Translations under genes and position numbers: made by a program
Origin: Ralstonia pickettii
GTDB taxonomy: Bacteria; Pseudomonadota; Gammaproteobacteria; Burkholderiales; Burkholderiaceae
NCBI RefSeq assembly: GCF_001699815.1
Contig: NZ_MCGB01000094.1
Coordinates: 1 to 44,209, forward strand
DNA: 44,209 nt
Direction: 5' to 3'
Part shown: positions 27 through 24,611 of the stretch, piece by piece
Layout: every line of letters begins with the position of its first letter
How positions within the stretch are numbered: position 1 is the stretch's first letter
The notes under the pieces: generated by a model
What the model saw: the letters and a program-made list of their open reading frames with translations, nothing else
What the model was told of the DNA's origin: nothing
Database searches by the model: none

Positions 27-1175
27 CTAGGCGGGTTGCTTGCGGGGCTTTGCAGCCTTGGAGTCGAGCGTGCTTTCCAGCTTGCTGCGCAATGTGTGGG
101 TGTTGAGCACGCTACAGAATTCGCTTCCTGTTGAATATGTGGCCTGCACGACATCACCGATGCCCAGAGCGGTCAACCCGCCGTAATTCTCCACCTCGAC
201 ATCGAGGCCTCCATTCAGCAGGCCGCAAAGCAGTTGCTCGTAGATTGGCATGCCGAAACCCACTCGCAGATTCAGCCTGAAGTGATCGCCATACGTGTCG
301 GCCAGCAGATGTGCCGACGTGCCGTTGAAGACAGGATAGCCGAAGGAATCCTTGTACCCCTTGACGGTATTGATGCCGATGCCTTGCTCACTGGCGAACG
401 TGAAAGCGGACAGAAGCGTGTCGGCGTTCAGATTGCGGAATTCGTGATTGAGCAGAAGCTCCCAAAGCCAGCAGCCAAGATGCCATCGACTGCGCAGAAG
501 CGCCTCGTCCAAGCTGGCGAAGATCTCCATCGCTACGTCGTAGTCGTGGCCGATGGCGGCGAGGAAGAACTGCAATGCCAGGTCGGGTGAGATCTCATCA
601 CGGATGCCACGCCAAGTTGCCATGGCCTGACTCGGTGACGCGGAAAGCCGTTTGGCGAAGACCGCCAGCGCCTGATAGGCCGCCATGAGATTGGCGGATT
701 GTCTGGGCGTGAGTCGTGCCGTCTCAAGCGCGCGCAAATCGTCGCCTTGGACGATCACGTACCCTTGAGGCTCCATCTCAAGATGGAGGCTGCGGAAAAA
801 CCCGATCAGGTGACCATCGACTTCCAGTGCTGGGATCAGGTTCGTCCAGCATGCTTCGGCAATGCGGGTGGCATCCTCATCGGTGCCCGTGAGCGTGACC
901 GTATGCCCGTCCAGCCAGTCAACCACAGCCCCAAGCCGATACTGCTGCTTGCCAGTGACGTCGAGCCGCCAGTCTTCAACGGCGCTGACTGGCTCGCTCA
1001 GCCAGTGGGCCAGTGCAGCTTCGTCGGTCCATCTCTTCTGTCGTTCAACGCTGTCTTTGGGGCGACACGTCAGGATCGGCGCTAGCACCTCCAGTGCAGC
1101 CGCGACGTGAGGCAGGCACATAGGTGTGGCGGAGGGGAGCTGTTGTAGGCGGATCAGAAATTCAAGCGCGGTCAT
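27..1175 (-). CDS. hypothetical protein, divergent from the BREX-like operon
   Basis: This 382-residue protein has no signal peptide or membrane segment and no motif that I recognise. It is rich in short helices with a more beta-like C-terminal third, so it looks soluble and cytoplasmic. The ATG is the first start in the frame, and the open frame has good coding character over its whole length. It is divergent from the helix-turn-helix gene, with only about 45 bp between the two start codons, so the two probably share a control region. That placement suggests a role linked to the defence operon, but the sequence itself does not show a function. Confidence 0.8.
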   Translation of the reverse strand: MTALEFLIRLQQLPSATPMCLPHVAAALEVLAPILTCRPKDSVERQKRWTDEAALAHWLSEPVSAVEDWRLDVTGKQQYRLGAVVDWLDGHTVTLTGTDEDATRIAEACWTNLIPALEVDGHLIGFFRSLHLEMEPQGYVIVQGDDLRALETARLTPRQSANLMAAYQALAVFAKRLSASPSQAMATWRGIRDEISPDLALQFFLAAIGHDYDVAMEIFASLDEALLRSRWHLGCWLWELLLNHEFRNLNADTLLSAFTFASEQGIGINTVKGYKDSFGYPVFNGTSAHLLADTYGDHFRLNLRVGFGMPIYEQLLCGLLNGGLDVEVENYGGLTALGIGDVVQATYSTGSEFCSVLNTHTLRSKLESTLDSKAAKPRKQPA

Positions 1176-1220
1176 GACGTGGGAGACCTATCGTTGATCA
1201 AGGATTTCGCTGCGCAAGGT

Positions 1221-1502
1221 ATGAAAATTTTGTACTATTCTGCACCAAACCCACTTTTAATACCCGCGATTGTGTCTACCCCAAAAGGCGAGATCCTCAC
1301 CATCAAGGAAGTTGCTGACTACTTGAAGGTTACGGAGCGGACGATTTATCGGCTCGCAGGAGCCAAAAAAATTCCCGCCTTCAAAGTTGGGGGGGTATGG
1401 CGATTCTCGCGCAGCGACATAGATACCTGGATCGAGCAGCAGTCGACGGAAGAACGAGAACCTATCACGCAGGGGACGCCCCACAAGGGGGAGCGTAAAT
1501 AA
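1221..1502 (+). CDS. helix-turn-helix DNA-binding protein (excisionase/AlpA-like)
   Basis: A 93-residue protein whose central part reads as an excisionase-family (HTH_17, MerR-like) winged helix: LTIKEVADYLKVTERTIYRL followed by the wing IPAFKVGGVWRF and SRSDIDTWIEQQ. Such proteins bind DNA as local regulators or as recombination directionality factors. Its stop codon overlaps the ATG of the DUF499 gene (TAATG), so it is translationally coupled to the defence operon and may be its autoregulator. The start is uncertain: an upstream GTG at 1179 nearly abuts the divergent gene, the ATG at 1221 was chosen, and a GTG at 1271 would still keep the whole domain. Confidence 0.85.
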   Translation: MKILYYSAPNPLLIPAIVSTPKGEILTIKEVADYLKVTERTIYRLAGAKKIPAFKVGGVWRFSRSDIDTWIEQQSTEEREPITQGTPHKGERK

Positions 1503-4225
1503 TGCTTGGACTGACTCTACGAGAAGAATTCCGGGGCAAACGCCTCAAGGGCACGGCCATCGAGCTGTCCAACGATCAGCATACTGGCGCGACCCAGATT
1601 GCGGCCAAGCAGTTTTTGGAGATCACCTATCCCACGCACGATCTGTTGAAGGGCATTGAGGCTGTTGGCCCCAACCAGGGGCGCCCCGTGGTCGTGATTG
1701 GCGAACGCGGTCTCGGTAAGTCGCACTTGATGGCCGCGCTTTACCACGCGGTGACTGACCCGGCATCGACCAGCGCGTGGCTCAATACGTGGGCAACCAC
1801 GCTGGCTGAACCCGGCATCGGCAAGATCGCGCTGCGCGACGGGATGCACGTCATTGGCGAAAGCCTGCATCGTCACCGCTACAAATTCTTGTGGGACGTG
1901 CTGTTCGAGAACCATCCGCACGGCACCTTCATCAATGGCAAGTGGGAAGGGCAAGGCGCATCCAAGACCGAAATCCCGTCCGACAAGCTCATTATCGAGT
2001 TGCTGGAGAACAAGCCGACGATGCTGCTGCTGGACGAATTCCAGACGTGGTACGACGGCCTGACCAACACCAAGCAGTACCCGTGGAAGAACTGGGCGTT
2101 CAACTTTATCCAGATTCTTTCGGAGATCGCCAAGGAGCGCCCTGATCTGCTGGTGCTGGTGATTTCGGTGCGCAATGGTGGTAGCGATGCGTACCAGCAG
2201 GTGCATCGTGTCAATCCGGTCGCCATCGACTTCAAGGCAGGTGGCAGCGCCGAGCGCATCCAGCAGGATCGTCGCCGAATGCTGCTCCACCGTCTGTTCG
2301 ACAACCGTTTGCAGATCGCCAATGGCACGATTGAGTCGCTGGTCGCGCAGCACGTCACCGAATCCTTCCGCCTGCTCGACGTCCCACCTGCAGAGCAGGA
2401 GCGCAAGCGCCGGGAATTCATCGAGTCGTGGCCCTACGCACCGCACCTGCTGCGTCTGCTCGAAGAGCAGGTGCTGATCGCTACCGATGCGCAGGAGACG
2501 CGCGACCTGATCCGCATCCTCGCCAATCTCTACAAGAGCCGTGGCGAGGCCGTGCCGGTGCTCACCGCCGCTGACTTTCGGCTGGACGACGGCACATCGG
2601 GCATCGGGGCGTTGCTGGAGGCCGTGGCCAACCAACACCACCGCATGCTGCGCGAGAAGGCGCAGCAGAACATCATCTCGGTGCAGGAGGCGCGGCACGA
2701 CCACGCCAGCACCGCACCACACCTGCAAGAAATCGTCGGTGCGCTGTGGTTGCGCTCGATTGCCGTGGGGAACCTCGCTGGAGCCGAACCAGCCACGTTG
2801 CAACTGGATATCACCCGTGACAAGCCAGTAGACGATAACGCTTTTCAGGTTGAGTTGGCGACCATCGTCGAGAACAGCTTCAACATCCATAAGGAAGGCA
2901 CCAAGCTGTTGTTCCGCGAGGAAGAAAACCCGCGCGCCAAGCTGATGGCCTACGCACGCAACGACAAGCTGTTCGCTGATGGGGCCGATCAGGCGCAGCT
3001 CGCTAAGCAGGTGCGCTACGTGATCGGCGGCAGCGACGAAGTTGCGAAAACTTTCCGCGTGATTGCCTTGCCGAAGTCTTGGGCCAACGATCCGTGGACA
3101 TCGCTCGACGAAGCAGAGCAGCCCGAAAAGTGGGACGACCGCTTGCCCATCCTTGTGCTGCCCGAAGAACCGGATAAGCTCGACTCCACGCTCGGCCGCT
3201 GGCTCAAAGACCAGTTGCAGAAGCGCCGCAACACCGTGCGTTTCCTGCTGCCGCGCACAGGCAGTACCAATGCCTTTCTGGATCGTGACCTGCTCATCCT
3301 TGCCCGCGCCGAGATGAAGGCCCAGGAATGGAGCAGCCAGAACCCCGAATATAAGAAGCTGCACAAAGAGTTCGAGGGCACGCTGCGCGACAATCTTAAG
3401 AAGAGATTCGACCGCTTTGCTGTGTTGCAACGCTGGAATTTTGCCGAACCCGCGCAGTGCAAATTCAGCGTCGAGCGACTCGACAAGCAGGGCTCGCAGA
3501 TTCCTGACGCCATCGAAGCATCGCTGATCAGTGATCTGTTCGTACCCGAGGATTTCGAGGAGCTGGTTCTCGAATTCGCCAACAACAACGAATCGGTCGG
3601 CAAGCTGCTACGTGAGCTGCAAGAGCCGCGTCCCGCCGGACAGGACTGCATCCCGTGGCTGGGCGAAACGATGATGAAGGAGCGCTTGCTGCGCCTATGT
3701 GCTAAGGGCAGAGTCGCCATCAATGTGCGTGGCAGGGATATCCTGCAAACCCATCCTGGTGAAGAGGAAGACATCGCATGGCAACGCCTTAAATCTAAGT
3801 TTGCCGTGACGGGGCGCCAACTCGACGAGGTATCTGTGATGCTGCCCTCCGCAGTACCTGCGACGGGTGGCTTCATGCCGCCTGCGTCGTCGCCGACAGG
3901 TGGCGGAATGTTCGGCGGCGATAGCGCGGCACCGCCTGTGCCCGGAGACGATACGACCACCGGCACTCCTTCTGCATCCACGCCGGGCGGCATTTTTGGC
4001 GGCGATACTACGGCCACAAAACCGCGCACCCCGCTATCCAACCCAGCTACGTCGCCGCTCAACCTGATTGGCAAGATCGAAGGTTGGGGCATCGGCCCGG
4101 CTACGCGAGTGGCCGAGGTGTCGATTAAAGTGTCCGCCGCCACTGGCGCGCAGCTCAAGGAACTGCTCAAGAAGTTGCCCGAAGGTATGACCTTCGAGCT
4201 GAACCTTGAGAAGGAGGACGACTGA
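1502..4225 (+). CDS. DUF499-family P-loop ATPase (BrxC/PglY-like role)
   Basis: A 907-residue ATPase. The Walker A motif GERGLGKS is at residues 67-74 and Walker B LLLDE at about 175-179. The N-terminal pattern matches the DUF499 family of ATPases found with DUF1156 methylases and PglZ proteins in predicted phage-defence loci; BrxC/PglY ATPases of BREX play the equivalent part. After the ATPase core and a long alpha-helical middle comes a Gly/Pro/Ser/Thr-rich linker (about 785-850) and a small C-terminal domain ending in an acidic tail. A GGGGGAG ribosome binding site precedes the ATG. The gene overlaps the HTH gene by one base and the PglZ gene by one base (TGATG), so the three are coupled. 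Family assignment is from pattern recognition only. Confidence 0.85.
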   Translation: MLGLTLREEFRGKRLKGTAIELSNDQHTGATQIAAKQFLEITYPTHDLLKGIEAVGPNQGRPVVVIGERGLGKSHLMAALYHAVTDPASTSAWLNTWATTLAEPGIGKIALRDGMHVIGESLHRHRYKFLWDVLFENHPHGTFINGKWEGQGASKTEIPSDKLIIELLENKPTMLLLDEFQTWYDGLTNTKQYPWKNWAFNFIQILSEIAKERPDLLVLVISVRNGGSDAYQQVHRVNPVAIDFKAGGSAERIQQDRRRMLLHRLFDNRLQIANGTIESLVAQHVTESFRLLDVPPAEQERKRREFIESWPYAPHLLRLLEEQVLIATDAQETRDLIRILANLYKSRGEAVPVLTAADFRLDDGTSGIGALLEAVANQHHRMLREKAQQNIISVQEARHDHASTAPHLQEIVGALWLRSIAVGNLAGAEPATLQLDITRDKPVDDNAFQVELATIVENSFNIHKEGTKLLFREEENPRAKLMAYARNDKLFADGADQAQLAKQVRYVIGGSDEVAKTFRVIALPKSWANDPWTSLDEAEQPEKWDDRLPILVLPEEPDKLDSTLGRWLKDQLQKRRNTVRFLLPRTGSTNAFLDRDLLILARAEMKAQEWSSQNPEYKKLHKEFEGTLRDNLKKRFDRFAVLQRWNFAEPAQCKFSVERLDKQGSQIPDAIEASLISDLFVPEDFEELVLEFANNNESVGKLLRELQEPRPAGQDCIPWLGETMMKERLLRLCAKGRVAINVRGRDILQTHPGEEEDIAWQRLKSKFAVTGRQLDEVSVMLPSAVPATGGFMPPASSPTGGGMFGGDSAAPPVPGDDTTTGTPSASTPGGIFGGDTTATKPRTPLSNPATSPLNLIGKIEGWGIGPATRVAEVSIKVSAATGAQLKELLKKLPEGMTFELNLEKEDD

Positions 4226-5214
4226 TGGCTTTGACCGCTAGCGTACTGCACGCTCTGACGCAAGGCACGGACGCCGACGCTTGGCGCGTTATCGTCAATC
4301 ACGCGGTCGAGATCGCCTCGAAGCCCTTGGCCGCAGGCAATGCGCCCGGCGAGGTGGTGAAGCGTGACCGTGAAATTGGCGAACTGGATCTGTTCCTTTC
4401 CTCCAGCGGTTGGGATTTGTGGCAAGCATTCGACGGCAGCGTGGAACGTACCTCGGATCGCTTGGTGCGCTGGTGGGCCGAACCGTTCAGCGCCAAGGCG
4501 GTGCTGATTCTCGACGGCCTGTCGTTGCGCGAACTGCCGTGGTTGTTGCAGGGCGCGAAGGAGCACGGCTTCACCTTGCATGAGGTCAGCGCCAAGGCAT
4601 CCGAACTGCCTGGCGAAACCGACGAATTCGCACGCGCGCTTGGCTTCTCCAGCCGCAGCAAACTACAGAACAACGGAGGCGGCTTGGCCCACAAGCTGCA
4701 ACAGGCACTGACCGAAACCGTCGATCTGCCGTGGAAGGATTGTGAAGCCCTGATCAACAGCACGCCAAATCAAATCTTCTGGCACCACTGGCCGGACGCT
4801 AAGCTGCACGATGGCTCTGGCGCGGGCCAAGGATTGGAACCGTTGACGAAGGACGTAGCCGAGCAACTATCCGGCGTCGACTTCTGGGCCTTCGTCGAAC
4901 GTCTGGCGACCGGGCGGCGGCTGGTCATCACCTCCGACCACGGCTATGCGGCCACCGGCTACTTCCCCGACGCGGATGGCGAGGTCGGCCAGTTCCTCAA
5001 GCAGACCTTTTCCAGTGGGCGCAGCAAGACGGGCACCGGTGACCCCGGCCCCTTCGTGCCACCCGTGGCATTACAGATCAACAGCCCCCACGGCGCGCAC
5101 CTGTTGGCCTTGGGTCGCAGGAAGTGGCGCAGTCAAGGCGGCTACCCAACGCTCACACATGGCGGCCTGTCGCTGCTGGAAGTGCTGTCGCCCTTCGTGG
5201 AGCTGACCAAGTAA
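4225..5214 (+). CDS. short PglZ-domain protein (alkaline-phosphatase superfamily)
   Basis: A 329-residue protein with the marks of PglZ: LILDGLS at about 94-100, the metal-site motif TSDHG at 236-240, and the C-terminal THGGLSLLEVLSPFV at 311-325. PglZ proteins are the common marker of BREX and Pgl systems and belong to the alkaline-phosphatase fold. Canonical PglZ proteins are usually two to three times longer, so this is close to a bare catalytic domain with a helical N terminus. The expected metal ligands Asp97, Asp238, His239 and His312 are present, arguing for an active enzyme. The start overlaps the stop of the DUF499 gene, which suggests the two products act together. Confidence 0.82.
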   Translation: MALTASVLHALTQGTDADAWRVIVNHAVEIASKPLAAGNAPGEVVKRDREIGELDLFLSSSGWDLWQAFDGSVERTSDRLVRWWAEPFSAKAVLILDGLSLRELPWLLQGAKEHGFTLHEVSAKASELPGETDEFARALGFSSRSKLQNNGGGLAHKLQQALTETVDLPWKDCEALINSTPNQIFWHHWPDAKLHDGSGAGQGLEPLTKDVAEQLSGVDFWAFVERLATGRRLVITSDHGYAATGYFPDADGEVGQFLKQTFSSGRSKTGTGDPGPFVPPVALQINSPHGAHLLALGRRKWRSQGGYPTLTHGGLSLLEVLSPFVELTK

Positions 5215-5226
5215 GGATAACGGCCG

Positions 5227-8200
5227 ATGGCCATCAAGAAAGAATTACTCGCGCAAGAGGTTGCCAAGGCTGTTGGCGCAGGCAAGACAGCCGCACTGGT
5301 AACGGTCGATTTCAACGATCCGAACCGTCCCAAGACTTGCTTGGAGGTGGATTTCCCGATTTTGCCCGTCAACCAAGTGGCGGTGATCGAAGGTAACGCG
5401 GGCAAACCCATCTATCAGATGTCCAAATGGTGGGCGCGGCGGCGTTCCAGCGTGTTTCGCTCGATGTTGATCGCGGCGGCTACGAAGGCGCCGGAAGATT
5501 CCTCACACGCGGCCAAGCTGGTGTGGGATAACTACTACGCCAACCACCAAAAGAAGGGTGCGTTCAAGCACCTGAAGGTAGCGGACATCTTCATGGGCGG
5601 CGGCACCACTCTGGTGGAAGGCTCGCGCCTGGGCATGCAGATGGTCGGCAACGACCTGAATCCGGTGGCGTGGTTCGTGGTCAAGCAGGAACTGGCGAAT
5701 GTTGATCTGAAGCAGGTGAAGAAGCTCGTCGCCGACATCGAGGCCGAGGTCAAGCCGCAGATCATGCCGTACTACTACTGCGACGGCCCGCAGGGTGAGA
5801 AAGGCACATGGACGCATCAGCCTACGGGCAAGGCGATGCCCGCCGAATTCGACCCACTCGCCATCCCGCGTGATGAGCGCAAGGACTACCATTACGAAGG
5901 CCCGGAGATCATCTACACCTTCTGGGCTAAGCACGGCCCATGTCAGGTGACGGGCTGCGGCCATCGCACACCGATCATGACCAGTCCTGTGATGGCGGTG
6001 AAGACGCTCACCGTCAAGCATTGGGAACACACCTGCGGGAAATGCGGTGAGGCGTTCGTCGTGGAGGAAGAGTCCGCGCGTATGGCTCCCGATGCGCCGT
6101 TCTACGTCGCTCCCACCGAATCGCCGTATTCCGTACTCGACCGTAAGAAGGGCGTGATCTGCCCACACTGCGGCCACACGGCGTTGGTGAATCTTGGCAA
6201 GGGCAAGAACAAGAAGGTTGAACTGAGCCTGCTGGTGCATCCGCAGTGGTTGGCGGGTGAGGCCAAGCAGGACGCCGACGGTCAGCCGTACGGCGGTTCG
6301 GCGCAGGACGATGTGGTGGCGACTACGCGGTGGGATGCGGCACGCTCCGCGAAGATTCGCTTGCTGGAGGTGCGCGGCGCGCTACCGGATGAAGTGACCG
6401 ACCCGGAAACTGGCGTCACATTCGCTCCAGAGAAAGGTACGGTACCGAAGAAATCGCATTACGCCTGCTCGGCCTGCGGCACGGTGCAGGATGTGCTAAC
6501 CACCATCAAGGCGACAGGCAAGACCGGGCCGATGGCAGCCTACGCGGTGCAGGGCTATGCACCCAAGCGAGATGAAGCAGGCAAGCCTTACAGCGGTCGC
6601 TTCTTCGCCGCCTACGATGCTGCGCACGCCCGGCAGTACGACAGCGCGTTCGCGGAATGGGAGGTGCGCAAGGACGATGACCTAAAGGACTACTGGCCGC
6701 GGTCCGAACTGGCTTACGGCTTTATGACCCACCACCTGCAAGGCGGTGTGCCCAACCACGGCTTTACGCACTGGTGGACGATGTTCAACCCGCGCCAGTT
6801 GCTTGTTCATGCGCAACTGCTCAAAGCCATTGTCGAGGTCGGCAACTACGACTGGAAGACTCGCGAGTATTTGCTCGGCGCATTCCAGCAGTACCTGCGT
6901 AACCAGAGTCAGTTTGGATTCTGGAACCCGCAGCGTGACACCCCCGAGCCGATGTTTTCGAACAATAACTTTCACCCGAAATCCACGGTCATCGAGAATT
7001 GCGTGTTCCCTGCACTGGGGCGCGGCAATTGGGCCGCCTGCGTTGAGGGCATCGTCGAAGGACGTGAATGGGCTGTGGAGCCCTGGGAAGCGGTAAGCCT
7101 TGAAGCGCTGAAGCGACAAGCTCCAGCATTGGTCGAGCAACTTTCAGGCAAGAGTGAGAAGGTCTATCCTGGCGATCCGGTCGGCGAGGTTGGCGTGTTC
7201 CAAGGCTCGTCCACCGACCTTTCGCACGTCCCCACTGCCAGCCTCGATCTGGTCATCACCGACCCACCCTTTGGTGGCCTGCTGCACTACTCGGAACTGT
7301 CCGATTTCTTTTACGTCTGGTTGCGCCTCGCGCTGAAAGACAAGTATCCCGACTACTTCCGCGCCGACTACACACCCAAGTCGCTTGAGGCAGTTGCAAA
7401 CCGCGCACGCGAGCCGGAAGACCCGGATGGCTTCTATCAACGCCTGCTCACACAGTGCTGGCGCGAGGCCCATCGCGCGCTCAAGCCCAGCGGCATCCTC
7501 GCCTTCACTTTTCACCACAGCGAGGATGAGCCGTGGGTGGCGGTACTGGAATCGCTGTTCGACGCTGGGTACTACCTCGAAGCGACGTATCCCATTCGCT
7601 CCGACGAAACCAAAGGCGAAGGCGAGTTCGGCTCCAAGACCATCGAGTACGACATCATCCATGTCTGCCGCAAGCGTACCGAGGAACCCAAGCCGGTGAG
7701 CTGGGGCCGGATGCGCCGCGAGGTGATGGCAGACGTGCGCCAGTTGCAGGCCATGCTGGAAAACCACGCGAAGGAAGGTCTGCCTGCTGCCGACATTCAG
7801 GTCATCCGACGCGGCAAGGCGCTGGAATACTTCTCGCGCCATTACGGCAAGGTCTATGTCGATGAGGAACGAACCATCTCTGTTAAGGAGGCATTGATCG
7901 GTATTAATCAACTCATCGATGAAGACGCCAACAAGGGGCAGGAGCCTCCACCAGTCAATGCCGAACCGATGACCCGGCAGTTTCTGCGTACCTTCGGCAA
8001 TTCGATGGAGCTGAAGCGCGACCAGTTGCAGAAATTCCTGCGGGGTACCATCACAACACCGGATGATTTCGTTCAGCGTGGTTGGTGCAGCGAAGTCAAG
8101 AAGATCTTCACTCGCACGACCCCGCTGGACTTTGCGCGCGAATGGTCGGGGAAGCATCGCCGCCGCCTGACATCCGATCTGGATCAGGCGCTGGTACTGA

Positions 8201-8439
8201 TCGGCGCGTGCTTCGACGGAAGCGGAATCAACGCCTCGGATACGTTGAAGAATGACAACTTCAAGTCGCACGTCGCGCTGAAGCCGCTGCTGGAGTGGAT
8301 CAACCGCAACGGCCCGGATCAGGTCACTCGCAGCGCGGCTTCACGCGCGGTGTCCATCTACAACGCTTGGCATGCTGGTCAGGCACCGAAGCCCGCACAG
8401 GGCTCCTTGTTCGATGACGAAGGGGGGTACGAAAGATGA
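5227..8439 (+). CDS. DUF1156-type adenine-specific DNA methyltransferase with zinc ribbons
   Basis: A 1070-residue methyltransferase. The N terminus has the DUF1156 signature around YQMSKWWARRR. SAM-binding motif I is FMGGGT at 122-127 and the catalytic motif IV is TDPPFGG at 678-684, which predicts amino-group (N6-adenine or N4-cytosine) methylation. About 550 residues lie between the motifs and include several CxxC pairs (for example CGKCG, CPHCG, CSACG) that look like zinc ribbons and may help recognise the target. Methylases of this class (PglXI in type 3 BREX) usually mark host DNA. The gene follows PglZ after 12 bp with an AAGG ribosome binding site, and its stop overlaps the next ATG (ATGA). 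No separate specificity subunit is seen. Confidence 0.88.
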   Translation: MAIKKELLAQEVAKAVGAGKTAALVTVDFNDPNRPKTCLEVDFPILPVNQVAVIEGNAGKPIYQMSKWWARRRSSVFRSMLIAAATKAPEDSSHAAKLVWDNYYANHQKKGAFKHLKVADIFMGGGTTLVEGSRLGMQMVGNDLNPVAWFVVKQELANVDLKQVKKLVADIEAEVKPQIMPYYYCDGPQGEKGTWTHQPTGKAMPAEFDPLAIPRDERKDYHYEGPEIIYTFWAKHGPCQVTGCGHRTPIMTSPVMAVKTLTVKHWEHTCGKCGEAFVVEEESARMAPDAPFYVAPTESPYSVLDRKKGVICPHCGHTALVNLGKGKNKKVELSLLVHPQWLAGEAKQDADGQPYGGSAQDDVVATTRWDAARSAKIRLLEVRGALPDEVTDPETGVTFAPEKGTVPKKSHYACSACGTVQDVLTTIKATGKTGPMAAYAVQGYAPKRDEAGKPYSGRFFAAYDAAHARQYDSAFAEWEVRKDDDLKDYWPRSELAYGFMTHHLQGGVPNHGFTHWWTMFNPRQLLVHAQLLKAIVEVGNYDWKTREYLLGAFQQYLRNQSQFGFWNPQRDTPEPMFSNNNFHPKSTVIENCVFPALGRGNWAACVEGIVEGREWAVEPWEAVSLEALKRQAPALVEQLSGKSEKVYPGDPVGEVGVFQGSSTDLSHVPTASLDLVITDPPFGGLLHYSELSDFFYVWLRLALKDKYPDYFRADYTPKSLEAVANRAREPEDPDGFYQRLLTQCWREAHRALKPSGILAFTFHHSEDEPWVAVLESLFDAGYYLEATYPIRSDETKGEGEFGSKTIEYDIIHVCRKRTEEPKPVSWGRMRREVMADVRQLQAMLENHAKEGLPAADIQVIRRGKALEYFSRHYGKVYVDEERTISVKEALIGINQLIDEDANKGQEPPPVNAEPMTRQFLRTFGNSMELKRDQLQKFLRGTITTPDDFVQRGWCSEVKKIFTRTTPLDFAREWSGKHRRRLTSDLDQALVLIGACFDGSGINASDTLKNDNFKSHVALKPLLEWINRNGPDQVTRSAASRAVSIYNAWHAGQAPKPAQGSLFDDEGGYER

Positions 8440-8942
8440 GGCAACTGCTGGACACAGTGTGGCAGCGGCGTGGCACCAGTTGGGTATGGGACGAAGAAGC
8501 ACGCAACCAGATCTGCGCGGCCAACGAGGTGTGGAGCTTGCGTCAGTTTCTGCGTGCGGCGCAAACAGCGGGAAGCTGGCCGGAAGACCTGCCTAGTAAT
8601 GACGATCAAACGCTAGTGGTTGCGGGGTTGGATGGTAGCCTTGACCTGCTGATGCCGACAGACGCGGAAACGTGGCTGAGTGATGTGGTTAAGCCCGCCC
8701 TACTGTCGTTTCAGGACGCCTATGCGGGCGGTGCGGCGCTGGTGTTCTGGTTGCCCGGTGGTCATAACCGAATCAAGGTGCAGACGACTACCGACGAGGT
8801 GGGCTGGCTGTGCCACACTCCCCATGGGCATCAGATCGACTTCGGTCGTATCTTGTGGGGTCAAGCCAATGAGTACCCGCAGGAAATCCTGTTGCGCGAC
8901 GGCAGCAAGCCCGCTGGCCTGTTCCACCTGCGGATTACGTGA
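8436..8942 (+). CDS. hypothetical protein within the BREX-like operon
   Basis: A 168-residue soluble protein that I do not recognise. It overlaps the methyltransferase stop by 4 bp (ATGA) and ends 9 bp before the helicase start, so it is clearly a full member of the operon. It is Trp- and Asp-rich, without membrane segments or Cys clusters, and reads as an alpha N-terminal part followed by a beta-rich part (for example GAALVFWLPGG). Its place between methylase and helicase suggests an adaptor or specificity component particular to this system; that is inference from position only. Confidence 0.8.
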   Translation: MRQLLDTVWQRRGTSWVWDEEARNQICAANEVWSLRQFLRAAQTAGSWPEDLPSNDDQTLVVAGLDGSLDLLMPTDAETWLSDVVKPALLSFQDAYAGGAALVFWLPGGHNRIKVQTTTDEVGWLCHTPHGHQIDFGRILWGQANEYPQEILLRDGSKPAGLFHLRIT

Positions 8943-8951
8943 GGTCGGCGC

Positions 8952-11732
8952 GTGACGACAGAGATTCAGTTCCAACCCGGCGAGCGCATTACCCACCACG
9001 AATATGGCCAGGGTGTTGTCCTTGACCCAGCGCATGACGGCTATCTGCGTGCGTTTTTCGGCGTCGGTGAGCGCCGAGTGCCGGTGGCTTCGCTGCGGCG
9101 CGAGCTCACACGTACCGAACGCATTCTGCGCGCCGTGGACGGCAACGCGGAGCGTGCTCGCAAGGCGTGGCTGTCCTATGAGGCTCACGCGCTACCAGTG
9201 ATGGAAAGTGCTTCGGCGCTGACCTCGGCCAAGATCGACCTCTTGCCGCATCAGGTGGTACTGACGCACCGCATCGCCACCGCATCGCCCCGGCGCTACC
9301 TGGTCGCCGACGAAGTGGGCTTGGGCAAGACCATCGAAACTGCGTTGATCCTGCGCGAGCTGGCCAGTCGGGGCGAACTAAACCGCGCGCTGATGGTTGT
9401 GCCCGCCGGTCTCGTAAACAACTGGCACCGTGAATTGAACGAGGTGTTCAACCTCGAATTCGAAGTGTTCGGTTCCGAGGGTGACATCACCGACCGCAAG
9501 ACCAACGCCTTTGCCAAGCATGATCGGCTGATCGCCAGCATCGACACGCTGAAGCGCCCGGCGCGCATCAAGCGTTTGCTGGACGCGCCACGTTGGGATC
9601 TGGTGGTATTCGATGAAGCGCACCATTTGACTGCCTACCGTAGTGGCGGAAAGGTGCGGAAAACCGAGAACTACAAGCTAGCCGAGGCGTTGAAGGATCA
9701 CTCGCGCGACCTCGTGCTGCTTTCGGCAACGCCGCACCAGGGCAATCATTTCCAATTCTGGATGCTGGTGCAGTTGCTGAACCCGACGTTGTTCCGTAGC
9801 CCCGAGGAGATGGTGGAGAGCCGTCACCGGCTTAACACGGTGATGTTCCGCCGTACCAAGGCCGATGCCTGCCAGCCTGACGGTTCGCCGTTGTTTGCGC
9901 GCCGCTGGGTTCACACCGAATCCTTTGTGATGTCTCAGGCCGAACGGCTGTTCTATGAGAAGCTGCGCGAGTATCTGGAGGACGGCTTCGACCTCGCACG
10001 TCGCCAGGGTAATCAAGGGCGCGCGCTCGGCTTCTTGATGGCGATCTTCCAGAAGATAGCGGCGTCGAGCTTTGCCGCCGTGCGCCGCACGCTTAAACGC
10101 CGCCTGCTGATGCTGACGTTGCATGAGGCGCTGCTGCGTGACAAGGAGCTGGACATCGAAGGTCGCGAACGTCTGACTGAGGAAGCGCGTGAGCTAATCC
10201 ACGAGGAGTTCAATCTGTTACGCGACAACATTGGGCGTAGCGAGGTGGATCGAGTGCTGGCCGACCTGAAATACCGGTTGGTAAAGAAGCTGGACGAGGA
10301 TGCGCTGGAAATGGCCTCCGATCCCTACGGCAGCGAGTATTCAGCCACGTACGCGGAAGAAGCTGCCTCGGCGGCGGTAAACCTGCATCTGCCCGAGGAA
10401 CGCTTGCGTATCGGCGACCTGCTGCGCGTGTTTCCGCCGCAGCGCGAAACCAAGATGCAGAAGCTGCTCGACGGCTTGGGCACGCTGTGGCGGCAGAACC
10501 CGAACGAGAAGATCGTGATTTTCGCCACCTACCTCGGCACGGTGGACATGATTGCCCGCGAGATCGAGCAGACTTTCCCCGGTCAGGGCGTGGTGGTGCT
10601 GCGTGGCGGCGACCACGGCGCGAAGGTGGCGGCGGAACGGCGCTTCAGGCAAAAAGATGGCCCACGCGTGCTGGTCTGTACAGCGGCAGGACGCGAAGGT
10701 ATTAATCTGCAATTCGCGCGCATCCTGTTTAACTTCGACCTGCCGTGGAATCCGATGGACATGGAGCAGCGTATCGGCCGTATCCATCGATACGGTCAGC
10801 GCGACACCGCGCAGGTTTACAACCTTGTGCTGTCGGATACCATCGAGGGCCGTATCTTCCTGCTGCTGGACGAGAAGCTAATAGAGATCGCACGTACGGT
10901 TGGCAAGGTCGATGATCAAGGCAATGTCGCCGAAGATTTACGAGGGCAAATTCTTGGCCAGTTGTCGGAGCGTCTGAATTACGACCGTTTGTATCAGGAG
11001 GCTCTGTCCGACCCAGAACTCAAGCGAACGCAGGTGGAATTGGAAGCGGCACTCTCCAATTCACGCGAAGCACGACAGGTGGTTTTCGACCTTTTCCAAG
11101 ACCTCGACGGGTTCAGCCTTGACGACTACAAGCCATTCTCTGACGTGTCGTCCAGTCTAGAGCGGCTGGTGCAATTTCTGTCGGCTGCAATCGCAGATCG
11201 CCAGCGGAAGCTGACCAAGGTGGACGATGCGACCTTCGACCTCGTCAATGCTGACGGCACGCGTCGCGCTCGCTTTACCTTGAACCGCGAAGCTGCGACG
11301 AACCAGGATGATCTGCAGTTGATAGGCCTGGATCACTCTTTGGTGCAGGAGGAACTGGGGCGCTGGCGCAGCGTGCCCCCCGAGGATCTCGGGATTGCGG
11401 TTTCAGGTGACGTAGACGAGCCGGTACTGCTATCGCTCTGGATGGTCGAAGCATCCACTGGCAATGGTGAGCGTCGTGTTGTGGTTCAACCCATCGCCGT
11501 CAAGCAGGATGGCACGCGAGTTCCTGCGGTTGAGCGGCAGAGTGAACGGTACCTGCAGGCGCCAACGACCACACCGACATTCAATCCAGAACGTCGCCGG
11601 GACATATTTTCCCATGCTGTCGAACCGACCTTGCAGCGGGAATTGAAGCACAAGGGGGCTGTAAATGGGGATGGCAGTTACTCAGCGGAACTGATTGGCT
11701 ACGTCGAGATCGTAGGCGTGCCTACCTCTTGA
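8952..11732 (+). CDS. SNF2-family helicase (DrmD/BrxHII-like)
   Basis: A 926-residue superfamily 2 ATPase. Motif I is DEVGLGKTIE at 120-129, motif II DEAH at 221-224, motif III LLSATPHQGN, and motif VI QRIGRIHRYGQ in the second RecA-like domain. The N-terminal 60 residues form a small beta-rich module before the helicase core, and about 280 residues follow it. Helicases of this type accompany methylases in DISARM (DrmD) and type 3 BREX (BrxHII), where they are thought to move along invading DNA. The start is a GTG with GAGGT upstream; no nearby ATG fits. This appears to be the last gene of the operon. Confidence 0.88.
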   Translation: MTTEIQFQPGERITHHEYGQGVVLDPAHDGYLRAFFGVGERRVPVASLRRELTRTERILRAVDGNAERARKAWLSYEAHALPVMESASALTSAKIDLLPHQVVLTHRIATASPRRYLVADEVGLGKTIETALILRELASRGELNRALMVVPAGLVNNWHRELNEVFNLEFEVFGSEGDITDRKTNAFAKHDRLIASIDTLKRPARIKRLLDAPRWDLVVFDEAHHLTAYRSGGKVRKTENYKLAEALKDHSRDLVLLSATPHQGNHFQFWMLVQLLNPTLFRSPEEMVESRHRLNTVMFRRTKADACQPDGSPLFARRWVHTESFVMSQAERLFYEKLREYLEDGFDLARRQGNQGRALGFLMAIFQKIAASSFAAVRRTLKRRLLMLTLHEALLRDKELDIEGRERLTEEARELIHEEFNLLRDNIGRSEVDRVLADLKYRLVKKLDEDALEMASDPYGSEYSATYAEEAASAAVNLHLPEERLRIGDLLRVFPPQRETKMQKLLDGLGTLWRQNPNEKIVIFATYLGTVDMIAREIEQTFPGQGVVVLRGGDHGAKVAAERRFRQKDGPRVLVCTAAGREGINLQFARILFNFDLPWNPMDMEQRIGRIHRYGQRDTAQVYNLVLSDTIEGRIFLLLDEKLIEIARTVGKVDDQGNVAEDLRGQILGQLSERLNYDRLYQEALSDPELKRTQVELEAALSNSREARQVVFDLFQDLDGFSLDDYKPFSDVSSSLERLVQFLSAAIADRQRKLTKVDDATFDLVNADGTRRARFTLNREAATNQDDLQLIGLDHSLVQEELGRWRSVPPEDLGIAVSGDVDEPVLLSLWMVEASTGNGERRVVVQPIAVKQDGTRVPAVERQSERYLQAPTTTPTFNPERRRDIFSHAVEPTLQRELKHKGAVNGDGSYSAELIGYVEIVGVPTS

Positions 11733-12004
11733 GAAGTACCCTTTCTCGTAGACCACTACGGCGTACAACAGGTAATTAGCCGACATCGCTGCCAGGCGTA
11801 GTTACGCACAGCAATCGATGTTCATATCTCTTCCCATCAAACGCGGAGATGGCCGGTGGCCATAAGCAATAACAAAGGAGTTGGCACAACCTGTGACTGA
11901 TGATAAGAACGAGACATGAGGAAGAGTGAATTCCCGATTGGTCGCGGTAGTCTTTCCCAGTCGGACGAATCTCATCTCATCGATGCATGGCAAGCAGTCC
12001 GTTC
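11733..12004. other. convergent intergenic region
   Basis: These 272 bp separate the helicase gene from the convergent GHKL-nuclease gene. I see no convincing open frame, no strong intrinsic terminator and no repeat. A weak GAGAA/TTCTC hairpin just after the helicase stop has no T-run. Confidence 0.6.
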
Positions 12005-13933
12005 TTATATCTCCATCTTGCCTTGTTCTGGCTGTGCAAAGACTCGATTCAACAGACCGTCGGTTGAGACGTCGCCATACCGTGCGGCCAACACGTCGCG
12101 CATTTTGAGCAAGCGGCGGTTCGCTGTGTCCACCAGCGTACCGAACGTTGTAGCTCGTATGCGGCCATATTTCTGATTACCGTCGCCTACTTCTTTTTCG
12201 CGCGCTACGCCAGCTGCCACCTTCTGACCAACCACCCATGCGCAGATGTAGGGTGTCCCCGCAAGTGCACCAGACGAAGCAATGTCCTGTACGTACCCGT
12301 CAGCCTGATTAACTTCCTTGCGTGTCAACTCAAAGCCGCCCTTCTTGAGTTCAATCACGAGGACATGCTGTAACCTAGTGAGAGTCGGGTCAGCAGGGTC
12401 GAACGATTCAATGCCAGTAAGCTGCCACGTCGTCTTGTCAGGCAGGACTACGATATCGGGACGATGGCGCTCGTTGATGAACTGCGCGTCTGAGCTCTTA
12501 AACAGTTCGCGTGCCACCGTCTGCAAGGTGGCATTTGAGCAATATTCCTGTGATTCGAATTCGGGGCCAAACACCCACCGCGAGCGCAGTACCAAGGGGT
12601 GCAGCGTATGCAGTTCATCTGTATGCGGATCGTCGGCCAAGCGCCGGATGGTTTCAATCACGCTAATTCGGCTGTCTATCTCATCAAGTACACGCAGTGC
12701 ATCCTTGATGGTCCACTCAGTAAGCAGGCGATCCAGCCCATCAATATCGTCGGGTTGCAAAACGGATAGCTTCTGTAGGAGCGCAGCCCCCGTTTTTGAC
12801 TTCTCCAGATGGATGACCGCTTTGACAGCGGTCGCAAGGAAATCGGGCGAGATGGTGGGATGCGTCTGGGCTACCGCCTTGGTGAACTCGGCGACTTCCA
12901 AACGTGCCCCTTGCCCCAAGGTGGCCAGCTCGCTTCGGTTTTGTGTCAGCGCGTCTTCGGAGGCCGCTTCAACAACTTCTGCGGCGAGTTCCTGCGCGAC
13001 TTTCCCGATGTGTTCCGCCGTCGCGGAATACAGCTTTTGAACTTCGTCCGTCATACGGAATGCAGTCCAATCTTGCGTTACATCGGCCTCGTAGCCTTGT
13101 GTGTCCACAATGACCTTGTAGCGACGAGCAAAGCGCGTCCGTCCGTCAAAACTAGCCACCGATCCAATCGACCATGAGGGCATGCCAACCAGCCGCCGTT
13201 GCACCCAGAAAGCGATACCCTGATGTATGGACGAATGGTTGAGGCGGGTCGAGTCGATCACGATGATGGTGGCGCGACGTCCATCACCAAGCTCAAGTGT
13301 TTCCTCACTGACTCGGCCGTCAATTTCGGTGAAGGGGCGTTGACTGCCGTTGACCCGAATCTCGAACTCAGGGTCATGAATGAAGCGTGCCGCGAGCACG
13401 GTGAGGATTTCATCAGCGTCAGGGAGCTTGCGAGTTATCTGTACCGAAAGCCGAGTGCCGTTGCCCGTTCGTTGCCCGAGCGTTTCGCTGCGCAATACAA
13501 AGGGGCTGGGACCGGATTCGGTGCCGACGACGAATGTCGCGAGCGTACCGTCGCGCCAAGTCTCTACTTGGTATTCATCTGCGAAGCACAGCAAGCCGTG
13601 CCGTCCAACGCCGTTGCGTCCATAGGCTTTTCGGGGGCGAGCTGATCGCCCGTCCGGAAATTCAACATTCGCACCCTGGTGCTTTAGACGAGAGTAGCGC
13701 AAGGTCATCCAGCGCTTCTTGAACTGCGCCGGCGTCATGCCGTGTCCGTCGTCAGTAACCGTAAGCGTGCCACCGACTTCAGTGGGCAGAATCAAAGCCA
13801 CGCGTGCAGCACCGGCATCCCAGGCGTTCGCCACTAACTCGGTCAGCGCCACTTGCGGTACATGAGCGACATCTCCCAGTTCGCGCAGCAGATAGTCGTC
13901 TTCGAACAGCGAGGTTTGCAGCGGCTCAGACAT
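12005..13933 (-). CDS. GHKL ATPase with C-terminal PD-(D/E)XK-like nuclease motif
   Basis: A 642-residue protein. The N-terminal half is a GHKL (Hsp90/MutL/histidine-kinase-like) ATPase: N-box ELVANAWD at 32-39, G1 motif DDGHGM at 61-66, and lid motif NGVGRHG near 107-113. The C-terminal part contains RPDIVVL (Asp493) and VIELKKGG (Glu528, Lys530), followed by a QADGY helix, which is the D-ExK arrangement of PD-(D/E)XK nucleases. No histidine-kinase dimerisation helix is seen, so a signalling kinase is unlikely. It is convergent with the helicase gene and separated from it by 272 bp, so it is a separate transcript in the same defence cluster. An ATP-gated nuclease is inferred; the exact family is not known to me. 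Confidence 0.82.
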   Translation of the reverse strand: MSEPLQTSLFEDDYLLRELGDVAHVPQVALTELVANAWDAGAARVALILPTEVGGTLTVTDDGHGMTPAQFKKRWMTLRYSRLKHQGANVEFPDGRSARPRKAYGRNGVGRHGLLCFADEYQVETWRDGTLATFVVGTESGPSPFVLRSETLGQRTGNGTRLSVQITRKLPDADEILTVLAARFIHDPEFEIRVNGSQRPFTEIDGRVSEETLELGDGRRATIIVIDSTRLNHSSIHQGIAFWVQRRLVGMPSWSIGSVASFDGRTRFARRYKVIVDTQGYEADVTQDWTAFRMTDEVQKLYSATAEHIGKVAQELAAEVVEAASEDALTQNRSELATLGQGARLEVAEFTKAVAQTHPTISPDFLATAVKAVIHLEKSKTGAALLQKLSVLQPDDIDGLDRLLTEWTIKDALRVLDEIDSRISVIETIRRLADDPHTDELHTLHPLVLRSRWVFGPEFESQEYCSNATLQTVARELFKSSDAQFINERHRPDIVVLPDKTTWQLTGIESFDPADPTLTRLQHVLVIELKKGGFELTRKEVNQADGYVQDIASSGALAGTPYICAWVVGQKVAAGVAREKEVGDGNQKYGRIRATTFGTLVDTANRRLLKMRDVLAARYGDVSTDGLLNRVFAQPEQGKMEI

Positions 13934-23130: not shown

Positions 23131-24450
23131 TTACCAGAAATGCTTGATCGGGAATTCCAGCCGGTCAATGGTCTGCTTCAAAACGGATAACGGCTTCTCG
23201 TGCTGATAATTGACGACGTGCGGCGCAGAAAGATCCACCTTCGCCTGCGCATAGTGCCCCACCATGGACATGACCAGCACCGGGTGGACGTTCAATTCCG
23301 TCATACGAGTAATGAACGTGTGGCGGAACGAGTGAAACACCTTGCGGGAATCGCTGATCTTCAGCGAGTCGAGGTAAGCCCCGAATCGGCGCGACATATT
23401 CTTGCTGTAGCCGTTCTTGCCCGCTGTCAGGTGGGGAAACAGCATCGTCGCACCTTGAGCGCGCACGCTGTCCACGTAGGCCAGGAATCCCGAGGTTTCG
23501 ATCTGCCGGTGTAGCGGGATTTTGCGGATCGAATTGAGGTTCTTGGCTTTCTCGATCTCGAAGTAGTGAATACCGCCATCCTTCTTGATCTGGTTCAGCG
23601 ACAGGCTTGCCAGCTCCTCGACCCGAGCACCCGTGTAGAGGGCAAGCAGCGGCAACCAGTGATAGTCGGGCTTGTTCATGAACTCCCGATACGGTGCCTC
23701 GGCGAAGATCAGCTTGAGATCGTCGTCCGTGAATTCTCGATAGGATTCCACTTGTTGTTTTAGCTTGGTTTTGCTCGAGACGCGGACCTTCTCGAACGGG
23801 TTGGTGGTGAAGTACAGGTTATTGTTGATTGCGTATGCGAAGAGATCCCTCAGGAACGAGGTCTTCGCATTGATTCGGCTGGCCGACGCATTGGCGGCGA
23901 GCAGCCGGTTCTTGTAGGCGATTGCGGTATCGGCATCAAAGGCGTTGATATCGCTGTCCTGGAAGAACCCCTGGAACTCGGTAAAGGTGCGTTCCTTGTC
24001 CTCCAGTGTTTTCGCTACGTTATCGAGCTTCTTTTCTGTGAGGTAGAGCGCAATGACGTCGGAGAGCGGCTTGCTCTTCGGTTTCGGCGGCTCCATGCGC
24101 TGAGGCTCGGGACCGGCCAGTAGCCTGGCAACTTCCGTTGTTGGCATCGCGGCGAGCTGTTCGCCTGTCACGCCGAGCTTGTCGAGAATGTCGAACAGAA
24201 TGCCCTTGTCCTCGGGCTGGATATTCGTGAGCTTGACCCCGTTCGGCAGCGCGATATCGAGGTGACGGAACATCTCAGCATCAAGGCGCGATTTGCTCAT
24301 CTCAACGTGCACGTTCAGTAACAAAGCGGACAGTTTAGCCCGCTGGAAATCTTTTGTGCCGAGAGAGCGGCGAGTGTCGGTTTTGCCGTGCGTGAGGCGC
24401 AGGTAGTAGACCCCATGACGGGAGCGGGTCAGGCGGGGGATTTTGTGCAT
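23131..24450 (-). CDS. tyrosine-type site-specific integrase
   Basis: A 439-residue integrase with an N-terminal DUF6538-like beta domain (LTRSRHGVYYLRL at 7-19), a SAM-like core-binding region (about 130-220) and a catalytic domain with Arg276 (YTGARVEE), Lys303 or nearby, HSFRHT (His373, Arg376), His399 and Tyr415. All parts are present, so it looks active. It is the enzyme that would insert and remove the island at tRNA-Met. The ATG at 24450 is preferred over one 12 codons upstream. The gene begins 84 bp from the tRNA 3' end, and the tRNA terminator sits between them. Confidence 0.9.
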   Translation of the reverse strand: MHKIPRLTRSRHGVYYLRLTHGKTDTRRSLGTKDFQRAKLSALLLNVHVEMSKSRLDAEMFRHLDIALPNGVKLTNIQPEDKGILFDILDKLGVTGEQLAAMPTTEVARLLAGPEPQRMEPPKPKSKPLSDVIALYLTEKKLDNVAKTLEDKERTFTEFQGFFQDSDINAFDADTAIAYKNRLLAANASASRINAKTSFLRDLFAYAINNNLYFTTNPFEKVRVSSKTKLKQQVESYREFTDDDLKLIFAEAPYREFMNKPDYHWLPLLALYTGARVEELASLSLNQIKKDGGIHYFEIEKAKNLNSIRKIPLHRQIETSGFLAYVDSVRAQGATMLFPHLTAGKNGYSKNMSRRFGAYLDSLKISDSRKVFHSFRHTFITRMTELNVHPVLVMSMVGHYAQAKVDLSAPHVVNYQHEKPLSVLKQTIDRLEFPIKHFW

Positions 24451-24484
24451 GGTCGGGTATCTGGGACACCGACCGGGACACCAC

Positions 24485-24526
24485 AAGAAAAAAGCCCTTG
24501 AACTTCTCGCGAAGTATCAAGGGCTT
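24485..24526 (-). terminator. intrinsic terminator of tRNA-Met
   Basis: A long hairpin with a 10-bp outer stem (AAGCCCTTGA/TCAAGGGCTT), a single-base bulge and a 5-bp inner stem (ACTTC/GAAGT) with a TCGC loop, followed on the minus strand by a T-run. It lies between the tRNA and the integrase, so it isolates the integrase from tRNA transcription. Confidence 0.9.
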
Positions 24527-24534
24527 ACAGCATT

Positions 24535-24604
<70 letters not shown>

Positions 24605-24611
<7 letters not shown>

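Follow-up and report, generated by a model that had tools for sequence, protein, structure and literature searches.

Relatives of bacteriophage exclusion (BREX) that are centred on a DUF499 ATPase, the BREX-Related (BR) systems, have been described by Rakesh and Krishnan (2026; PMC12839542). Their Type-3 BR combines this ATPase with an N6-methylase that has a DUF1156 N-terminus and a TRD insert and in a subset of members carries two four-cysteine (4C) zinc fingers, and with a BrxHII-like helicase devoid of a nuclease; a stand-alone, active PglZ is near-universal in 569 taxa, 134 of them archaea, and a small iSTAND gene is found in 466 members (82%) (PMC12839542). Type-1 BR, known as Hma in PADLOC (PMC8565338), has three genes only and 79% of its helicases bear a nuclease, and the ATPase tree of the same study keeps its three BR types apart (PMC12839542). 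The subject here is a six-gene operon at positions 1221-11732 of a 44,209-nucleotide stretch of DNA from Ralstonia pickettii (contig NZ_MCGB01000094.1; the whole stretch is hereafter called the window). Judged by its gene content against the published description, this operon is assigned, with a probability of about 0.85, to the Type-3 BR phage-defence operons.

Gene content of the operon

The genes and junctions of the operon are arranged as follows.

1221-1502, forward strand: helix-turn-helix (HTH) gene, with its ATG at 1221
1502-4225, forward strand: DUF499 AAA+ ATPase, BrxC/HmaC-like, 907 residues, recognized by PF04465 and Walker motifs
4225-5214, forward strand: stand-alone PglZ domain of the alkaline-phosphatase/NPP type, 329 residues, proposed effector, recognized by profile-profile comparison
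5215-5226, forward strand: PglZ-methylase junction of 12 bp, read from comparison with relatives as the empty form of a cassette site
5227-8439, forward strand: N6-adenine DNA methylase with a DUF1156-like N-terminus and two 4-Cys motifs, 1070 residues
8436-8942, forward strand: conserved protein of 168 residues, by position only the proposed iSTAND sensor
8943-8951, forward strand: junction between the 168-residue gene and the SNF2 gene, a second and less used cassette site, empty here
8952-11732, forward strand: SNF2 helicase of the RapA/BrxH/HmaA type, 926 residues, no fused nuclease domain detected

The likeness to Type-3 BR runs through the core. The ATPase is of the DUF499 type (PF04465 over its cut-off, Walker motifs), the N6-methylase has two 4-Cys sets as in the published subset (DUF1156 being below its cut-off), the SNF2 helicase is without a detected nuclease, the PglZ protein stands alone with its active-site residues, a small separate gene lies in the core, and the group occurs in bacteria and archaea. 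The differences are that the small gene can be matched to iSTAND by position only, that an HTH gene leads the copy in the window whereas the Type-3 BR section of PMC12839542 mentions none, and that the SIR2-HerA-like and IetAS-like cassettes of relatives are not named in the main text of that paper. The first-pass annotation of this DNA had supposed a separate, perhaps undescribed combination; this does not hold, as the core fits Type-3 BR and was already published in January 2026 (PMC12839542). The match of all six genes to a named subtype is a partial one: it stands for the core genes, with the reservations just given for the 168-residue and HTH genes.

All six open reading frames (ORFs) announced by that annotation as one coupled run are present and co-directional, neighbours either overlapping by 1, 1 and 4 bp or lying 12 and 9 bp apart. 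The run is more than a chance succession, since gene content and order are preserved in relatives. The flanking genes (27-1175 and 12005-13933) are on the strand opposite to the operon, and tblastn with them at E 1e-4 found nothing in any of the 94 loci searched; the ends of the module therefore look sharp. DNA homology between the window and the related locus L014 runs from 1502, the first base of the DUF499 gene, to 11725, next to the SNF2 stop codon, and homology with the locus L019 from 1293, inside the HTH gene, to 11711. A promoter and terminator scan of 900-12100 returned fewer sites than the mean of shuffled sequences.

Identity of the core proteins

Protein families were sought in Pfam (E ≤ 0.1), PADLOC (E ≤ 0.01) and NCBIfam, the PADLOC families considered being the best 25 of 28 for the methylase and the best 25 of 53 for the SNF2 helicase. 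The 329-residue protein has no match in Pfam or PADLOC, and its one weak NCBIfam match is to BREX_PglZ_3 (NF033449; E = 0.009), a model that is touched at E ≤ 0.1 by 24 of the 24 members of an alignment including the window protein (A4), in all cases weakly (best 2.2e-4). Profile-profile comparison is the reason for reading it as the catalytic domain of PglZ on its own, with a predicted metal site that is intact: an hhalign run of the window PglZ alignment against four other PglZ proteins gave a probability of 97.4% (E 1.4e-11, 270 columns), with the DG, DHG and HGG motifs lining up, and a control run of the 168-residue alignment against PglZ gave 3.3%. The query alignment consisted of the window protein and 13 relatives, two of them haloarchaeal (12 of the 14 rows being used by the program). 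Two of the four reference proteins carry a PglZ-domain annotation and come from haloarchaeal loci in which brxC and brxL are annotated as well; L105 and L107, the remaining two, were found by weak NF033449 hits of 29.5 and 26.2 bits, and each has a neighbour that we take to be BrxL. All 92 relatives compared share D97, S100, D238 and H239, T236 is shared by 90 of them and H312 by 91 (with one gap); in the alkaline-phosphatase superfamily, the residues corresponding to those of PglZ bind metal. The short PglZ of the first-pass annotation is thereby confirmed, at 329 residues and with its identity drawn from hhalign. A profile search of the PDB with the PglZ alignment returned designed proteins (0.012-0.15) and the response-regulator chains 8ted, 8thp and 8p6f (0.35-0.38), which are presumably of the PorX type.

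The ATPase passes PF04465 (32.2 bits, cut-off 23) and matches no BrxC model of PADLOC, Pfam or NCBIfam. Its Walker A motif lies at residues 67-74 and its Walker B motif ends in DE at 178-179; G72, S74, D178 and E179 are kept in 85 of 85 relatives and K73 in 84, and mean identity to the window protein drops to 0.46 at residues 801-850.

The methylase matches the PADLOC models HmaB (6.7e-36) and PglXI (2.3e-23), shares 34% identity across 137 positions with its counterpart in a BREX-3 locus, and exceeds the cut-off of N6_N4_Mtase (PF01555; 29.7 bits against 26.7), so that its identification as a methylase stands, the DUF1156 label given to it earlier being the weak part (see below). It has an FMGGG motif at 122 and a DPPF motif at 679-682, the latter kept in 78 of 78 relatives, and its two 4-Cys sets are found at 239/244/270/273 and 312/315/414/417, seven of the eight cysteines being kept in 78 of 78 relatives and one in 76. 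While stretches 51-150 and 751-850 are the most conserved (mean identity to the window 0.93-0.96), identity falls to 0.58-0.64 at residues 551-650 and to 0.52 at the C-terminal end; the variable stretch would set the target.

Among the proteins compared, the 168-residue one varies most, with a mean identity to the window of 0.69; it has no family match in PADLOC, Pfam or NCBIfam at the limits used, and no Walker A pattern. BrxB and BrxF were considered as identities and not supported: profile comparison with two proteins taken, by position, as BrxB (L112, L113) and BLASTP with one taken likewise as BrxF (L114) gave no match, in what is, with two and one reference sequences, a weak test. Weak Pfam matches of its relatives to BLF1 (2 of 25, best E 0.0044) and DUF6225 (1 of 25) were regarded as chance; searching the PDB with a profile of its alignment returned designed proteins (best 0.0017, short) and one weak match to a nucleolar factor.

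The helicase has SNF2 (PF00176; 8.7e-22) and Helicase_C domains over their Pfam cut-offs. Its best PADLOC models are BrxHI (4e-101), HmaA (3.4e-94), BrxHII and DrmD; the NCBIfam RapA model aligns from residue 3, below its cut-off, and the protein shares 35% identity across 344 positions with the helicase encoded in a BREX-3 locus. No fused nuclease domain was found in Pfam and NCBIfam scans, which could miss a very divergent nuclease. Mean identity to the window drops to 0.62-0.66 at residues 751-800 and in the last 75 residues.

At the head of the operon, the HTH protein (HTH_17, 5.4e-20) is a small excisionase/MAD1-like protein and likely an autoregulator; an in-frame GTG at 1179, upstream of its ATG, would give a product of 107 residues. 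It also passes the NCBIfam MAD1 model NF047737 (86.3 bits, cut-off 80), so that annotation may label it as part of MADS, though the rest of the MADS set was not found here. A tblastn query with the HTH matches ahead of DUF499 in 35 of the 73 genome loci with room for it, which makes the gene semi-conserved. In L025, L028 and an Aminobacter plasmid a different gene takes its place, annotated in the plasmid as a HigA-family antitoxin.

Conservation and distribution

A pattern scan of one genome per species (84,980 species) led to 218 confirmed PglZ relatives, the best 80 of which make up the genome survey, which leans to close kin; PglZ, as the search query, is present in all 80 genome loci. DUF499 is found in 80 of them, the methylase in 76, and the 168-residue and SNF2 genes in 67 each, all five core genes being together in 67 loci and in the order of the window in 67 of 67. 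The conserved neighbourhood of PglZ, ATPase, methylase and helicase, on which the first-pass annotation depended, is thus confirmed. In 12 of the 13 loci that lack one or more genes, the contig ends no more than 4.5 kb from PglZ. The exception is L091, where 10 kb is available, the methylase is hit only in part and the 168-residue and SNF2 genes are not hit at all, so that this is a case of real loss or rearrangement.

All five core genes in the window's order can also be found in seven of seven loci from a viral collection, phage records giving no match at E 0.01, and the operon occurs on Klebsiella-group and rhizobial plasmids. Directly before the operon of a Citrobacter plasmid (L005, 3614-6717) are annotated TnsD- and TnsE-type transposition genes, a possible Tn7-like carriage. 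In two haloarchaeal plasmids (L008, 6270-13742; L009, 6420-13894) DUF499, PglZ and methylase come first, then a small gene with a product 29% identical to the 168-residue protein, and after it an annotated DNA adenine methylase. The distribution is patchy and rare, with 3 of 274 genomes of the class and 3 of 200 of the order, the own genome being counted each time. Identical PglZ proteins occur across phyla or genera (L037 and L043; L062 and L063), through either recent transfer or binning error.

Weighing of the assignment

Several points weigh against the assignment to Type-3 BR. The DUF1156 label of the methylase is weak (PF06634, E = 0.0068, 16.9 bits, below the cut-off of 24), and an iSTAND identity of the 168-residue protein is unsupported beyond its position, with no BrxB- or BrxF-like signal. 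The two haloarchaeal loci have neither an SNF2 nor a 168-residue tblastn hit. As for PglZ, the Pfam model finds no match in the own genome or in the window protein and detects no more than two of ten aligned relatives (best E 0.012), and the window PglZ alignment, set against a pair of BREX-3 PglZ proteins that each exceed the cut-off of NF033449, reaches only 73.5% over 98 columns.

The operon could be a Type-3 BREX with some genes lost or diverged, with which it shares a PglZ domain, a helicase and a methylase related to PglXI, the latter two resembling the proteins of one and the same BREX-3 locus, as well as the universal if faint contact of the 24 aligned PglZ proteins with the BREX-3 model. 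The window has, however, DUF499 instead of BrxC and a PglZ reduced to its catalytic domain, which at 329 residues scores 14.3 bits where BREX_PglZ_3 asks for 250; no hit to BrxC, BrxA or BrxF was obtained for the six proteins among the PADLOC, Pfam and NCBIfam families listed, in agreement with the absence of BrxA and BrxF noted in the first-pass annotation, and 67 loci show the arrangement unchanged. A degraded Type-3 BREX is accordingly regarded as very unlikely. Set against the definitions of the classical BREX types and by the models tested, the operon does not pass as one of them, as had been proposed. An Hma operon that had gained a PglZ gene would explain the kinship of helicase (HmaA), methylase (HmaB) and ATPase, and the families HEC-01 and HEC-06, modelled in PADLOC as Hma-embedded, that match cassette proteins of relatives. 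Yet HmaA is matched by no more than residues 61-655, HmaC only weakly (E = 3.4e-04), the helicase has no detected nuclease domain, and the window has, beyond the three genes of Hma, both PglZ and a 168-residue gene, the latter accompanying PglZ in 67 of 80 genome loci and therefore pointing to a settled arrangement; such an origin is given slightly less credence still.

DISARM consists of DrmA, DrmB and DrmC with DrmD or DrmE. The DISARM half of the hybrid system supposed in the first-pass annotation is not supported, since only the SNF2 helicase resembles DISARM proteins (DrmD at 301.9 bits against a curated cut-off of 610; the PADLOC DrmA model at 6.4e-50) and the other five proteins gave no hit to DISARM among the families listed. 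With MADS (mad1-mad8) the likeness is that of the HTH protein to MAD1; otherwise the PADLOC matches are weak, the methylase hitting mad2 (3.4e-08) and the ATPase mad8 (0.0024), and the other mad genes gave no hit for the six proteins among the families listed, so that the operon is not placed in MADS. Lastly, a DNA-methylation operon might have a regulatory role rather than a defensive one, and no plating or methylome data for the group were found in the literature searched. This is held to be the least probable of the alternatives in view of the patchy distribution, the carriage on plasmids and beside mobilisation and integrase genes, the presence, within the operons of relatives, of gene pairs that match defence profiles of PADLOC, and the kinship with BREX and Hma. 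Type-3 BR thus remains the preferred assignment.

Cassette sites

Gaps were measured between neighbouring core genes. Among the genome loci, gaps of more than 250 bp are found between PglZ and methylase in 30 of 76, between the 168-residue and SNF2 genes in 9 of 67, between methylase and 168-residue gene in 4 of 67, and between DUF499 and PglZ in 3 of 80, the median gap in the remaining loci being 15, 12, 5 and 2 bp, respectively. The PglZ-methylase gap also exceeds 250 bp in two of five proteobacterial plasmid loci (L005 and L012, which carry the same operon) and in none of the seven viral loci.

Cassettes were grouped by BLASTP clustering, with one representative per protein being scanned. 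At the PglZ-methylase site, a SIR2 and HerA-like pair is present with both genes in nine loci, seven of them genome loci, and an IetA and IetS-like pair in nine loci, all genome loci; both genes of one or the other pair can be found in 16 of the 30 cassette-bearing genome loci. L078 has a shortened SIR2 frame and no HerA, and is counted as SIR2-HerA in the tree discussed below. Other inserts at this site are a TIGR04255-type gene (four loci; L092 shares small companions), an unknown protein of about 310 residues (three loci) and single inserts, one of which is GmrSD. The representatives match the PADLOC models of SIR2 (9.6e-88), HerA (1.2e-225), IetA (5.1e-145), IetS (1054.8 bits) and HEC-06 (765.5 bits) and miss the curated NCBIfam cut-offs (SIR2 47.9 against 500 bits, HerA 301.2 against 850, IetS 66.9 against 900), which is why their names are written with "-like". 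At the second site, between the 168-residue and SNF2 genes, eight of nine inserts contain one cluster of ATPase genes (representative HEC-01A, 2.8e-139), together in five of the eight with a clustered DUF4276 partner (representative HEC-01B, 2e-72); the ninth is a Schlafen/AlbA-type protein. Since HEC stands for Hma-embedded candidate (PMC12111858) and HEC models match cassette proteins, BREX-related operons of two types have embedded families in common.

Of the inserts between DUF499 and PglZ, those of L057 and L098 were dismissed, clustering and sequence identifying them as the divergent C-terminal part of DUF499. The gap of L018 contains an opposite-strand ORF only, which leaves its insert doubtful, so that L089 alone may have a real insert at this place; the PglZ-methylase gap of L089 has no forward ORF of at least 90 residues.

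The SIR2-HerA-like and IetAS-like cassettes may be unreported, because the main text of PMC12839542 contains none of the terms SIR2, Iet, subtilisin, subtilase, NADase and sirtuin; nor was any paper found in the open-access literature on PglZ with an embedded SIR2-HerA, or on SIR2-HerA and IetAS together with BREX.

Apparent exchange of cassettes

A PglZ tree of 89 rows, 86 of them different, whose bootstrap had not settled, requires no fewer than 22 changes of the six cassette labels (minimum 5), the label "other" lumping unlike inserts; shuffled labels need 30.9 on average, and 0 of 200 shuffles were as low. The SIR2-HerA label alone needs seven changes. Different cassettes can be found in sister rows, namely L067 and L071 (support 99/95), L076 and L080 (99/79), and L036 and L042 (98/84); between L076 and L080 the two flanks are 95% and 92% identical, with no alignment of the cassettes longer than 150 bp. 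The nearest relative of the window on this tree is L014, with which it forms a group (100/76); DNA identity between the two is 90% up to 5215 and 83% from 5226, with 0.96 kb extra in L014 exactly between. On this comparison the window carries the empty form of the cassette site, and the pattern fits replacement of cassettes through conserved flanks.

In the plasmid collection, the 34 records with this SIR2 at E ≤ 1e-60 are, compared by eye, the same 34 enterobacterial records that have PglZ. Among 5426 E. coli genomes, SIR2-HerA DNA at about 75% identity is present in 20 and 80% of the operon in none. One of the E. coli chromosomal loci (L116, 9054-11928) has a SIR2-HerA-like pair near guaA, with an integrase and conjugation genes alongside and no BR core within its 9 kb flanks (one locus); the SIR2-HerA-like pair therefore also lives free. 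IetAS pairs are likewise known in free form.

It can tentatively be hypothesized, at somewhat less than even odds, that Type-3 BR is made of a core and an exchange site, the SIR2-HerA-like and IetAS-like pairs being interchangeable second-stage effectors that are taken up at the PglZ-methylase boundary, co-expressed with the core and swapped many times over a core that itself does not move. The second stage would act once a phage blocks or survives PglZ. A second line of defence has been argued for nucleases, which Type-3 BR lacks or retains in limited instances (PMC12839542), and the cassettes may, by analogy, extend this argument.

Genomic setting of the operon

Further along the contig (14356-24611) are genes for a NikA-like mobilisation protein, a MobA/VirD2-like relaxase, a LuxR-type regulator and an integrase, the latter (23131-24486) lying beside a tRNA-Met (24535-24611). 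Relaxase genes and an integrase next to tRNA-Met suggest that the operon is carried by an integrated mobilisable element whose left end is beyond the start of the contig. The far end of the element was not found. Elsewhere in the genome the tRNA region is matched in part at three more places (74-84% identity), taken as other tRNA genes. The product of the convergent gene at 12005-13933 contains a domain of the GHKL ATPase type and resembles restriction enzymes of the BbrUII/HgiDII type (3.3e-22), scoring 78.8 bits where the cut-off is 550. Near the contig edge, the gene at 27-1175 on the reverse strand encodes a protein of 382 residues without a Pfam, PADLOC or NCBIfam match.

Proposed mechanism and significance

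Gene content, order, tight packing, conservation and intact catalytic motifs are the observed basis of the mechanism proposed here. The methylase would mark adenines (m6A) in a host motif chosen by its long insert, which bears both 4-Cys motifs. Joined by the 168-residue protein in the role of a sensor or adaptor, the DUF499 AAA+ ATPase would assemble on DNA and recruit the SNF2 helicase. Where this complex encounters phage DNA that is unmarked or in active replication, the DNA would be nicked by the stand-alone PglZ acting as a metal-dependent phosphodiesterase, a role given to PglZ because the helicase showed no fused nuclease. Repression of its own operon is the probable function of the HTH protein. 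Self-marking, scanning by ATPase and helicase, and nicking by PglZ have been proposed for BREX (PMC12839542), and we infer them here by analogy.

With its bare PglZ domain beside a methylase, an ATPase and a helicase, the operon would offer a clean test of PglZ alone as the BREX effector, free of the extra domains of BREX PglZ proteins. If the proposed exchange of effectors is true, some of the SIR2-HerA and IetAS calls made by defence-finding software would be cassettes of a larger machine. The natural pairs of relatives that have a different cassette or none, with cores 83-95% identical in DNA beside the site, would make the dependence of the nested pairs on the core testable.

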